Below are positions 15,207-39,079 of a stretch of 44,906 bases of DNA, piece after piece. The translations under genes were made by a program, and so were the position numbers. A model generated the notes under the pieces. It was given only the letters and a program-made list of their open reading frames with translations, had not been told where the DNA came from and searched no databases. The stretch is from Levilactobacillus wangkuiensis (GTDB lineage: Bacteria > Bacillota > Bacilli > Lactobacillales > Lactobacillaceae), in NCBI RefSeq assembly GCF_016861605.1, contig NZ_BOLM01000020.1:1-44906 (forward strand), read 5' to 3'. The stretch's first letter is position 1. Each line of letters starts with the position of its first letter.

Positions 15207-15384
15207 GCCTGCGGCAGTTCAGGAAGGCCCACCTGTGGGGAACGGTTGAAGCCAAAGAGCGGTCTTCAACCTCGTGGGTGAGCCTTGAAAAACACAAGTC
15301 TCACCCACGTCCCGTGCTGTAAGGCCGGGCAAAACTCCCGACCAACAGCACCGACACAGGTGGGACTTTCTGACTGCCTCCGGC
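15207..15384 (+). repeat. Cloverleaf repeat, copy A1
   Basis: First of eight full copies of a structured intergenic repeat. Outer arms (about 15207-15236 and 15355-15384) pair over some 25 positions and end in GCCTGCGGC/GCCTCCGGC. Inside are three hairpins: 15244-15271 (perfect 8-bp GGTTGAAG/CTTCAACC with loop CCAAAGAGCGGT), 15274-15308 (GTGGGTGAG/CTCACCCAC) and 15314-15351 (GTGCTGT/ACAGCAC). It lies between convergent genes. Family identity not recognised. Confidence 0.85.
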
Positions 15385-15480
15385 TACACTCATATTAGCT
15401 GAGTGCATTCACCCTGTGATGGCTGAATATCGAATCATTCAGTTTAATTGCGGATAGTCACAGTAAAAGGTGATTAGAGC

Positions 15481-15663
15481 GTCACAACTAATTAACAAAC
15501 AGTGTTATGACGATGACAGAAAATGACTAATGGCATTACAGGCTAAACGCGTGTCAGCCACATTCAGACTGACTAAGTCACAACTAATCAACAGACAGTG
15601 TTATAACGAGAACAGAAAATGACGACTGGCATTATGGGCTATGGGCTAAACCCGTGTAAGCCG
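15481..15663. repeat. Tandem direct repeat, two units 96 bp apart
   Basis: Units begin at 15481 and 15577 with GTCACAACTAATYAACARAC and share most of about 83 bp, ending in GGCTAAACSCGTGTMAGCC. The second unit runs directly into the structured repeat B1. It is probably a duplication of the sequence flanking B1. The rest of the 15,385-15,480 stretch shows nothing else. Confidence 0.8.
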
Positions 15664-15835
15664 CAGGGCTGGTGAAAATGGGCTCAGCCGTGGGAGTTGC
15701 CTTAGCGGTTTACCGCTTAGGCAACTGATATCTTTGAGACGTGACCTTCGGCTCAAAGTAAGCCTGGAGACCGCCTTTCAGACTCCAGGCGTTCGCCCAC
15801 AGCGTCACGGCCCAGTTTTCACCAGCCCGGAGGCG
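15661..15835 (-). repeat. Cloverleaf repeat, copy B1 (minus orientation)
   Basis: Outer arms GGGCTGGTGAAAATGGGC (from 15666) and GGCCCAGTTTTCACCAGCCC (15809-15828) pair almost perfectly. Internal hairpins: GTTGCC...GGCAAC (15696-15725), TTTGAG/CTCAAA (15733-15757) and GCCTGGAG/CTCCAGGC (15762-15790). The last has the conserved loop, read on the minus strand as TCTGAAAGGCGGT. Confidence 0.85.
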
Positions 15836-15882
15836 CGGACTACACGCGTTTAACCCGTAAACCCATAAATGAAGACAAAACA

Positions 15883-15914
15883 AAAACGGATGGCCAGCTG
15901 GTCGTCCGTTTTTC
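15883..15914 (-). terminator. Bidirectional terminator
   Basis: Stem AAAAACGGAT.../...GTCCGTTTTT around GGCCAGCTGGTC. On the minus strand it ends the 15925-16254 gene; it would also stop transcription from the left. Confidence 0.8.
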
Positions 15915-15924
15915 AATTCACGCG

Positions 15925-16254
15925 TTATTCAAATGACATCTCCACCAAATACGTCTGCTCGGCCGGAATGTGACTGGTCGTGATCCAGACTTCCCGATAG
16001 TCTAGTTTAGAACTGCGGGTCCGCTCGAAGAAATCATTGAGGAGGTCGCCGTTCATTGCCAAGAAGTCATCGTCCATCCGGTTGACCAGCAGGTGGCCAA
16101 CGGGGAAGTAGAGCTCTGGATTGGCCACGGAAACCGTGTCTGGCACGCCAATCGCGATGACGTTGCTGTTGCGCTGCTGGATAAAGCGCACCCGATCTTG
16201 GTGGCGATGGATAAAGGTTAGGACGTTATAGATTGAATCTGAGTTGCTCGCCAT
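15925..16254 (-). CDS. Hypothetical protein, 109 aa
   Basis: A soluble protein without signal peptide or membrane segment. Blocks include SIYNVLTFIHRHQDRVRFIQQRNSN, PELYFPVGHLLVNRMDDDFLAM and REVWITTSHIPAEQTYLVEM. GGGAGAAAG precedes the ATG. Monocistronic, convergent with the repeat region and divergent from the ABC exporter. I do not recognise the family. A bidirectional terminator follows the stop. Confidence 0.7.
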   Translation of the reverse strand: MASNSDSIYNVLTFIHRHQDRVRFIQQRNSNVIAIGVPDTVSVANPELYFPVGHLLVNRMDDDFLAMNGDLLNDFFERTRSSKLDYREVWITTSHIPAEQTYLVEMSFE

Positions 16255-16581
16255 TATCTTTCTCCCTTCGGTGACCCCATTGTAACAAATTCTGGCGCGT
16301 TTGCCAGTCTCAAACGCTTGTCAGAAGGGGCTTTTCCCGGCAGTCCTGGCAGCGACGACCGGGCAAAAGTTTGCTAGACCGTGAATGAAAGCGGATACGA
16401 ATTTTCGCTAAAAATGTCGGTGGCGCGACAATAAAATTCTTAATTTTCCATACTGACCTTTCCATGGTTGGAAATGGGAAGCGGGAACTTGGTAAAAGGT
16501 GGCGCTGCTGGGGAGCTTAACCACCGTCAGTCAGGGAACGCCAGTGGTTTCTGGCCAGTTAAAATTTGCAAGAATCCTTTA

Positions 16582-36908: not shown

Positions 36909-36930
36909 TGACGGGAGGAATTAACGAATA

Positions 36931-38346
36931 ATGAGTGCTGGTAAAATTGTTCAAGTTATCGGACCTGTTGTCGACGTTGAATTCCCGTTGAATGATGAAT
37001 TACCTGACATCAACACTGCCCTAAACATCAAAAAAGATGATGGTAGTGTCCTTGTAACCGAAGTTGCCTTGGAATTAGGTGACGGGGTTATGCGGACCAT
37101 TGCCATGGACGGTACCGATGGTCTTCGTCGGGGACTGGAAGTAGAAAACACTGGTGCTTCTATTTCTGTTCCTGTCGGTGACGACACACTGGGTCGGGTG
37201 TTCAACGTTCTCGGAAATCCAATTGACGGCGGTGCCGAATTTGGACCAGACGCAGAACGGATGCCAATTCACCGTGATGCACCTAAGTATGACGAATTAA
37301 ACCCTTCAACTGAAATCCTGGAAACGGGTATCAAAGTTATCGACTTGCTCGAACCTTACGTTCGTGGTGGGAAGATTGGGTTGTTCGGTGGTGCCGGTGT
37401 TGGTAAGACCGTTTTAATTCAAGAATTAATTCATAACATTGCCCAAGGCCATAACGGGATTTCCGTCTTCACCGGTGTTGGTGAACGGACCCGTGAAGGT
37501 AACGATATGTACTGGGAAATGAAAGGCTCCGGGGTTCTGAAGCAAACGGCCATGGTCTATGGTCAAATGAACGAACCTCCTGGTGCCCGGATGCGGGTTG
37601 CCTTGACTGGTTTAACGATTGCGGAATACTTCCGTGATGTTAAGGGCCAAGACGTTCTGTTGTTCATCGATAACATTTTCCGGTTCACGCAAGCCGGTTC
37701 TGAAGTTTCTGCCCTCTTGGGTCGGATTCCTTCAGCCGTTGGTTACCAACCAACGTTGGCTACTGAAATGGGTCAGTTACAGGAACGGATCACGTCGACG
37801 AAGAAGGGGTCTATCACCTCTATCCAAGCCGTTTACGTGCCTGCCGATGACTATACCGACCCTGCTCCTGCCACGACTTTCGCCCATTTGGATGCTACGA
37901 CCAACTTGGAACGGTCTTTGACCCAACAAGGGATTTACCCAGCCGTGGACCCATTGGCTTCAACGTCAACTGCTTTGGCCCCTGAAATCATCGGCCAAGC
38001 GCACTACGACGTGGCGACGGAAGTTCAACATGTCTTGCAACGGTACCATGAATTGCAAGATATCATCTCTATCTTAGGGATGGATGAATTATCCGATGAA
38101 GAACAAACGATTGTTAACCGTGCTCGGCGGATTCAATTCTTCCTGTCACAACCATTCTCCGTGGCTTCACAGTTTACGGGTATGGAAGGGAAGTACGTCA
38201 AGCTCGATGACACGATCCGGAGTTTCAAGGATATCCTCGATGGTAAGTACGACGACCTTCCAGAAGATGCTTTCCGGAACTGTGGTCCTATCGAAGATGC
38301 TGTGGCCAAGGCTAAGCAAATGAATGACGCCGTTGCCAACAATTAG
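36931..38346 (+). CDS. atpD: ATP synthase F1 subunit beta
   Basis: Catalytic subunit. 471 residues; P-loop GGAGVGKT (near 152-159), catalytic Glu in [11 protein letters not shown], the Walker B aspartate in [11 protein letters not shown], and the DELSDEEQ block near the C-terminus. GGGAGG precedes the start. Confidence 0.98.
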
Positions 38347-38359
38347 GGAGGGATTCTAA

Positions 38360-38779
38360 TTGGCTGATAATCAATCAGTGTTATCTGTTAGTATCGTTAC
38401 CCCTGATGGCCAAGTTTACGAAGGTAAGAGCGACTTATTAGTTGTGAAGACCACGATTGGTGAACTTGGGATTATGTATAACCACGTGCCGCTCATCGCT
38501 TCTTTGGAAGTCGATGAGACGCGGATCAAGTTAGGTGAAAACGAAGATAAAATTGCCGTTAACGGTGGTTTCTTGGAATTCTCTGACAACGTGGCGACCA
38601 TTGTTGCAGACAGTGCGGAACGTCAAGACGATATTGACGTCAATCGGGCTGAAAGTGCTCGTAAACGTGCTCAAGCAACGATTGAAAAGGCCCACGCCGC
38701 GCATGATGCTGACTCCCTTGCACGGGCTGAAGTAGCATTGCGTCGAGCTGTTAACCGGATCAACGTCGCTAAGCACTAA
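38360..38779 (+). CDS. atpC: ATP synthase F1 subunit epsilon
   Basis: Rotor foot and regulator of ATP hydrolysis. 139 residues: beta-barrel domain (VSIVTPDGQVYEGKSDLLVVKTTIGELGIMYNHVPLIA) and a two-helix C-terminal domain (NRAESARKRAQATIEKA). The start is TTG with AGGGAGGG upstream. A strong terminator follows. Confidence 0.96.
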   Translation: MADNQSVLSVSIVTPDGQVYEGKSDLLVVKTTIGELGIMYNHVPLIASLEVDETRIKLGENEDKIAVNGGFLEFSDNVATIVADSAERQDDIDVNRAESARKRAQATIEKAHAAHDADSLARAEVALRRAVNRINVAKH

Positions 38780-38801
38780 ACTCTTAAACAAATTCTTGTT
38801 T

Positions 38802-38841
38802 GAACGGTCCATCGCCCTTGGCGATGGCCGTTTTTTTTTTG
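38802..38841 (+). terminator. Terminator of the atp operon
   Basis: About 14-bp stem AACGGTCCATCGCC/GGCGATGGCCGTT with one mismatch, a short loop, and ten T residues. Confidence 0.92.
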
Positions 38842-38906
38842 CGCTTTGGTTTGCGCTCCCGGCGGCAATCTTCGCTACCGCTGCTGTGGGGCACGACTGC
38901 GCTCCC

Positions 38907-39079
38907 GGCGGCAGCTTCAAGGTGCTCTGCTGTGGGGCACGATTCCAGCCTGAGGGGCGGTCTTCCATCTCGCCTGGAAACCTCGCAAAGGGCGCAAGTT
39001 CCCCAGGTCGTCCCATGCCCTAAGCTGAGTGAGAAACCTCGGCTAATGCCATCGACACAGCTGAGTACCTTGAGCCGCC
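38907..39079 (+). repeat. Cloverleaf repeat, copy A5
   Basis: Outer arms GGCGGCAGCTTCAAGG and CCTTGAGCCGCC, inner CTGTG/CACAG. Loop hairpin at 38941-38969 (GATTCCAG...CTTCCATC, outer pairs GAT/ATC where A2 has GGT/ACC) with loop CCTGAGGGGCGGT. A 46-bp tandem duplication of its 5' arm (TGCGCTCCCGGCGGCA at 38852 and 38898) precedes it. It is outside the 15-25 kb cluster. Confidence 0.8.

Follow-up and report, generated by a model that had tools for sequence, protein, structure and literature searches.

Between the genes of a 44,906-nucleotide contig of Levilactobacillus wangkuiensis (C20, analysed here over its whole length and called the window; the genome measures 3.1 Mb) lies a family of repeats that fold like cloverleaves, and the question which this locus raises is whether they are a mobile element or a structured RNA. 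The original prediction had left both options standing; the present analysis prefers a non-autonomous, chromosome-restricted DNA repeat in which the fold is the functional unit, at a probability of roughly one half (0.52), and retains the structured RNA as a rival. The unit is ~180 bp long and consists of an outer stem, an inner stem that closes the hairpins H1 and H2, and a third hairpin, H3, in nested junctions; long outer arms with three internal hairpins had been claimed, and this common fold was found in all eight copies. The eight full copies themselves were all located, every end at most 10 bases from its predicted position (five A type, three B type), and the A and B profiles match each other's copies, as expected for two subtypes of a single family. 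What goes beyond the original prediction is the scale of the family, its presence in several genera, an orientation rule, facing pairs, and the nesting of A units in the arms of B.

A fold held by covarying stems

The loop AGCC N5-8 GCGGTCT is constant while its stem varies, as had been noticed in the window; across 49 B copies, the H1 pairs vary between TA and CG, GC and AT and so forth, with few mismatches. A 3x3 mismatch is kept in the A-type H1 (by eye). RNAalifold predicted 39 pairs common to both strands (of 49 and 56) for 74 A copies and 51 (of 53 and 57) for the 49 B copies; at these shared positions the A alignment has 2886 cells, comprising 2780 Watson-Crick, 25 GT, 49 AC and 32 other combinations, and the B alignment has 2445 Watson-Crick, 8 GT, 22 AC and 9 other. 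A covariance model (R1) was built from 34 sequences, 31 A and 3 B, and served to align 77 members from 19 sources in three genera, the window included; this alignment is fitted to R1 and hence leans toward the model. Double-sided changes occur in 42 of its 44 pairs, 91.6% of cells pair (64.0% after shuffling), and the covariation score is 0.648, compared to 0.183 in shuffled alignments and at most 0.103 in slid structures, at a mean pairwise identity of 0.45. Folded singly, 35 diverse members reached a median z of -6.8 relative to sequences shuffled by mononucleotides; 22 of them take one of two cloverleaf shapes, and 8 have two hairpins. Among close orthologues, double changes were few (two in A2, five in A4, none in A1, B2 and B3; the A3 set holds a paralogue). 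The genome and Rfam searches that had been proposed along with such a model were also made: covariation exceeded both the shuffled and the slid controls, and Rfam gave no match in the elements. Rfam 15 had no match in the window at gathering score, a search of positions 14900-39500 at relaxed E-value returned four unrelated sub-threshold matches, none within an element, and in four sources of related copies (L132, L121, L125, L217) only PyrR was found, outside the elements.

The fold is thus clearly maintained, whether as RNA or as single-stranded DNA; selection, as originally claimed, is not the sole reading, because template-switch correction between the arms of a palindrome can also give covariation. 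If mutation alone were at work, template switching between arms would keep correcting the palindromes, and the elements would be inert relics. The very few wobble intermediates among the 2886 A cells would agree with this, as would the flank arms, which also pair without sequence conservation. Yet 15 of the 30 alignment columns that are at least 90% conserved are unpaired, and should have been randomised, and the 3x3 mismatch of the A-type H1 should have been erased. Because these unpaired letters and a mismatch are conserved, selection is favoured, and an origin by mutation alone is very improbable.

Tests for the strand on which the fold would act conflict and favour neither strand clearly. 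Wobble pairs are few. Among the pairs shared by the predictions for the two strands, A-C mismatches exceed G-T, whereas G-T exceed A-C in the outer stems and in the alignment that was fitted to the model of the plus strand. Of 61 A copies, 46 fold better on the minus strand, and of 35 B copies, 29 do. H1 and H2 both read AGCC...GGTCT or a near form; on the minus strand, this leaves an A bulged out two base pairs beneath the loop (by eye), and in H1 we take this bulge to resemble known protein-binding hairpins. Such features suit a family of structured RNAs, transcribed as 3' untranslated-region or leader structures or as small RNAs that bind a protein, and so do the RNA-like covariation, the conserved loops and the better folding of the minus strand; wobble pairs without a consistent strand bias speak against it. 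The cruciform-like supermotifs of L. plantarum (LPSMs) offer a possible parallel, being transcribed and stable in the available description (PMC5643018, citing Wels et al. 2009). The placement of the copies bears on the same choice.

Copy number, orientation and orthologous gaps

Placement was analysed in a 445-kb sample, composed of the window and 20 stretches of 20 kb from the same genome (L161-L180; 444,906 bases, a non-random choice), in which a simple coding-score script of our own called 319 genes. Profile hidden Markov models found 104 near-full copies there (67 A and 37 B), or one per 4.3 kb; if the non-random stretches are representative, the genome would hold roughly 700 copies by extrapolation. 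About 4% of the sampled DNA of a food lactobacillus thus consists of one structured repeat family. All window copies lie between genes, as had been claimed, and none of the 104 shares more than 30 bases with a called gene. (With this caller, genes make up only 72% of the 445 kb.) Across the genome, R1 matched all of the best 150 of 1560 candidates; the DNA queries A2 and B2 gave at least 45 and at least 51 matches, with the best 40 of ~300 candidates scored for each, and 39 other full-length B matches that were scored share 87-97% identity with B2 at unlinked loci.

By R1, the family is present in 33 of 35 Levilactobacillus genomes, 20 of them with at least 75 matches; two genomes had no R1 match and one had only 9, although other subtypes may escape this model. 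Within the Lactobacillaceae, matches at E <= 1e-9 occur in at least 41 of 201 genomes and in at least 9 of the 40 genera sampled; these family-wide counts are lower bounds, obtained with strict filters from 13 scored candidates per genome. Among the best 150 candidates scored in each case, 148 were matches in Lactiplantibacillus xiangfangensis (L132) and 126 in Furfurilactobacillus milii (L121). Shorter relatives of ~144-154 nt, with two hairpins instead of three, were seen in L068, L112, L110, L130 and L131.

The copies obey an orientation rule. Where genes flank a copy on both sides, its 5' end is the one nearer to a gene in 90 of 95 cases (p 3e-21; median distances 103 vs 554 bp), and for single copies in 38 of 39. 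On their 5' side, 53 copies meet the start of a gene and 42 meet a stop, and therefore transcription direction does not set the rule. The 31 neighbour pairs within one gap comprise 22 convergent, 9 tandem and no divergent pairs, so that opposite-strand neighbours face each other without exception (22/22); by type, these facing pairs are 9 AA, 9 AB and 4 BA. In orthologous gaps of 20 sister species that hold at least two elements, the order is plus before minus in 12 of 13, plus-plus in one, and never minus before plus. In two other genera, neighbours at most 800 bp apart among the listed matches are likewise convergent (13/13 and 6/6, with spacers of 22-186 bp), and the 5' end is nearer to a gene in 10 of 13 copies, which is not significant alone, and in 13 of 15 (L239 and L223 left out). 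A hidden partner at the far end of single-element gaps was rejected, as a comparison of 25 singles with 62 element-free gaps showed no structure excess.

The orientation of the copies follows gap edges and not transcription, which runs counter to a structured RNA family; spread as DNA is favoured because the rule ignores transcription. Of the 28 copies that could be used from the other two genera, 19 face the 3' end of a gene, and this suits an RNA role there, or mere tolerance of insertions, as has been argued for pneumococcal repeats in the portion of the study available (PMC3049150). Taken together with the folding data, a structured RNA family is a possible but rather unlikely explanation of these copies; as a caution, covarying, RNA-like structures can be mobile DNA.

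Comparison of orthologous gaps leads back to the preferred DNA repeat. Near-full elements are confined to gaps of at least 300 bp, and the non-element DNA in such occupied gaps has a median of 534 bp, compared to 187 bp in element-free gaps of at least 30 bp; the elements therefore come with, or settle in, extra DNA. The gap between murT and tdk measures 203-244 bp and contains no element in 14 of 20 Levilactobacillus species, while in the other six it measures 661-1373 bp and holds one to three elements. A2 is shared by the window and L. lanxiensis (L062), but is missing together with ~100 bp of flank in L061 (gap 76 bp), and the L064 gap (86 bp) has no element. Orthologous sites without elements thus do exist in sister species, although neither A2 nor murT/tdk offered a clean empty site of a single element. 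Six of the eight gaps compared bear an element in some of the species compared, with widely differing occupancy. A units nested in the arms of B were seen by eye in L. lanxiensis and at many loci of the present genome. At L062:9339-9817, L. lanxiensis has two tandem A3 units; the window resembles one of them and L. mulengensis the other (by eye), as if one unit had been deleted in each line.

A function in the chromosome would account for part of this pattern: a host protein might bind the folded or cruciform elements and thereby mark or insulate intergenic regions (as in nucleoid organisation or a gene barrier), with copies kept for their position. The strictly intergenic placement, the orientation toward gene edges and the retention of the fold in most of the divergent members are in keeping with it. 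So is the blastn result for A, B and a Lactiplantibacillus pair, which had no match among 72,556 plasmid records and 50,697 phages, searches that detect only close relatives. The positions are not conserved, however, with occupancy varying widely in six of eight gaps, and any such function would be dispensable in the two of 35 Levilactobacillus genomes without R1 matches and in the one with 9, unless R1 misses their subtypes. Such a role is improbable on balance.

Spread, flanks and comparable repeats

If the family is a non-autonomous DNA repeat, it would propagate and be maintained as DNA of the chromosome, with each unit folding as one strand into a cloverleaf. The stems could then take almost any sequence provided that pairing holds, and the small set of core letters and loops would be retained, the simplest reason being that the folded unit is recognised by a factor; such a factor is inferred, as is spread as DNA rather than via RNA. 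Units often lie in facing pairs with their outer ends toward genes; in Levilactobacillus, A and B would have increased as single units that entered intergenic sites and one another. With each arrival, unique DNA would be gained at the 3' side, and some copies would in addition receive an inverted duplicate of their 5' flank, as might happen if the folded 3' end snaps back and primes synthesis on its own flank. Since nearly all pairs covary, one can search directly for a factor binding the fold, and the orientation rule together with the facing arrangement makes the insertion and spread of non-autonomous repeats in bacteria accessible to testing.

The snap-back step draws on mirrored flanks. 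In the present genome, the 60-nt flanks of many copies are complementary to each other, with a mean alignment score of 12.7 vs 7.5 when flanks are permuted within type; 36 of 90 copies exceed the 95th percentile of this control, and in part this complementarity is that of the diverged B arm which surrounds A. When the test is limited to gene edges at most 75 bp from the 5' side of the element, 8 of 37 are mirrored above the 95th percentile, and 3 above the 99th. At B3, the tdk-side flank recurs inverted on the other side of the element (score 13, whereas the best of 1000 shuffles reached 12; p 0.001), a match that is also obtained with the corresponding flank of L064 (p 0.001) and of L063 (p 0.024), both of which carry elements in this gap. 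A possible second mirrored copy behind A4 reached p 0.029 with the window flank and nothing with the other three flanks.

Several observations weigh against the preferred reading or its snap-back step. With the flank of L067, the one element-free species put to this test, the B3 match is not significant (p 0.14); individually, the mirrored flanks are significant in only two of the eight window copies (B1, p 0.010; B3, p 0.006); and of 29 copies in the other two genera, only 1 passes the 95th percentile at 60 nt, 3 at 100 nt and 4 at 150 nt, as do 2 of 11 gene edges. Mirrored flanks as a family-wide trait were set aside for want of clear replication in those genera. The transposase family Y1_Tnp (PF01797) has no member in the present genome, where other transposase families were not searched, and Y1 transposases occur in 23 of 35 Levilactobacillus genomes, including five in G012, which has no elements. 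Inspection of A2 and murT/tdk by eye revealed no direct target-site duplication; the flanks differ there too, and the search was not systematic. The absence from plasmids and phages, in searches that reach only close relatives, is odd for an active mobile element, and most window elements are common to species at ~94% identity. Neighbours of the same type resemble each other no more than random copies do (10 examined), and spacers are mostly unique. These last two findings, together with the free mixing of A and B, also leave a composite transposon with two like ends unsupported in Levilactobacillus; the RAYT/REP model was ruled out for the present genome by the absence of PF01797, and a G/T-rich spacer was not confirmed beyond ~70 bp from the elements. 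By eye, the element borders have no consistent T run on either side, and both flanks are T-rich.

The DNA repeat is thus to be pictured as a slow mover, because most window elements are shared with species at ~94% identity. Two young B copies are present in both nearest relatives, which therefore offered no empty site for them. Given the weak replication and the few significant window copies, snap-back priming is therefore a suggestion and not a result. Its fullest version, a transposase-free system in which a single-stranded cloverleaf is copied by template switching and snaps back, each arrival adding an inverted native flank (gene ends included) and a one-sided new spacer, is doubtful; if true, snap-back would explain why the 5' end points at the native gene, and intergenic regions would slowly be enlarging across a bacterial family. 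In L. xiangfangensis, 3 of 6 compared facing pairs are 77-88% alike over 390-465 bp, spacer included, and the others share one half or little; one Lactiplantibacillus facing pair of ~400 bp has been copied as a whole.

Known repeat classes resemble the family in part. REP and REPIN sequences with their RAYT transposases are extragenic and palindromic, often in inverted pairs, with units of 20-40 nt. In some copies of the present family, the minus strand reads GTAG-CCGGAGG, presumably like the foot of a REP; the units, in contrast, are 180 nt long with three hairpins, and the Y1 family is absent from the genome. Miniature inverted-repeat transposable elements (MITEs) are short, non-coding and present in high copy number, with terminal inverted repeats and sites without elements. 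The present family shares these traits, its element-free orthologous sites included; it differs in that the limited tests revealed no target duplication or partner transposase, and that the stems diverge freely while the fold stays. A single Streptococcus pneumoniae genome contains 125 BOX, 110 RUP and 30 SPRITE copies, likewise structured, interspersed repeats with nested insertions and slow turnover, among which the terminal repeats of BOX and RUP pair (PMC3049150, as available). BOX and RUP reportedly generate target-site duplications and share their ends with insertion sequences, neither of which was seen here by limited tests, and the accessible text describes no facing-pair rule for the three families (PMC3049150). 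The LPSMs of L. plantarum are also intergenic, repeated and cruciform-like, and occur in a Lactiplantibacillus; the facing pairs of the present family in Lactiplantibacillus would resemble a large cruciform. According to the part of the account at hand, LPSMs are 800-1000 nt long and specific to L. plantarum (PMC5643018), whereas here single units measure ~180 nt and facing pairs ~400-900 nt, and the family occurs in at least 9 genera, a comparison by description only. LPSMs may be relatives of this family. Rfam and the searched literature, which left out most subscription papers, name no such family; it is best described as a structured interspersed repeat, possibly one that includes the LPSMs.

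Elements of the window and neighbouring observations

The coordinates of the elements are collected in Table 1. The single fragment that had been claimed was found behind B2, where it reads as the remnant of an A-inside-B composite such as that in L. lanxiensis; it is not the only one, as a second fragment, a partial A start, precedes A5.

Table 1. Repeat elements, hairpins, spacers and fragments in the window (1-based positions; nhmmer and R1 scores in bits).
Feature	Position	Strand	Evidence
Element A1 (A type)	15205..15388	+	R1 149.7 bits, E 2e-39; folded
Spacer between facing A1 and B1, with 65-bp direct repeat	15389..15654	.	
Element B1 (B type), faces A1	15655..15835	-	nhmmer 197.3 bits; R1 90.4 bits
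Element B2 (B type)	20258..20439	+	nhmmer 205.4 bits
Hairpin H1 of B2, conserved loop AGCCTGAGAGGCGGTCT	20303..20331	+	sequence, fold, covariation
Hairpin H2 of B2	20335..20361	+	sequence, fold, covariation
Hairpin H3 of B2	20367..20399	+	sequence, fold, covariation
Fragment: A 3' end (~20606-20619), then B 3' arm (20612-20658)	20606..20658	+	A 3' end by eye; B 3' arm by profile match
Element A2 (A type)	21975..22164	+	profile match; orthologous gap comparison
Element A3 (A type)	24550..24744	+	R1 134.6 bits
Spacer between facing A3 and A4	24745..24919	.	
Element A4 (A type), faces A3	24920..25100	-	R1 172.0 bits
A4-B3 gap, with inverted copy of tdk-side flank (GTTTAATTTTCTAGAGGA)	25101..25145	.	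p 0.001
Element B3 (B type), tandem with A4	25146..25329	-	nhmmer 141 bits; R1 72.0 bits
Partial A 5' part, immediately before A5	38854..38897 (approximate)	+	repeat family D3 38859-38895; ends by eye
Element A5 (A type)	38902..39089	+	R1 182.8 bits

Among named species, L. mulengensis is closest at the murT locus (~94% DNA identity over two long blocks). B2 starts 16-18 bp past the stop codon of an ABC-transporter-like gene (18399-20240), and A5 sits behind what we take to be an ATP-synthase-like operon. The two copies of the direct repeat in the A1-B1 spacer (15481-15545 and 15577-15641) are 86% alike. Behind B2 lies a tandem duplication (20411-20592 and 20630-20800, step ~218 bp), each copy of which ends in a terminator-like hairpin and a T run. 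A different intergenic repeat with a long hairpin occupies positions 31487-31665; it had no Rfam match, and has relatives of 61-126 bp at 82-90% identity in L173 and weaker ones in L176. Outside the window, a 225-bp block just upstream of a B copy on contig C26 (L034:1256-1480) has no plus-strand open reading frame of 40 codons, no tRNA and no Rfam match at gathering score; it recurs at 87-99% identity in 33 of 34 Levilactobacillus genomes, the sole genome without it being 72% complete, and is possibly an uncatalogued conserved RNA.

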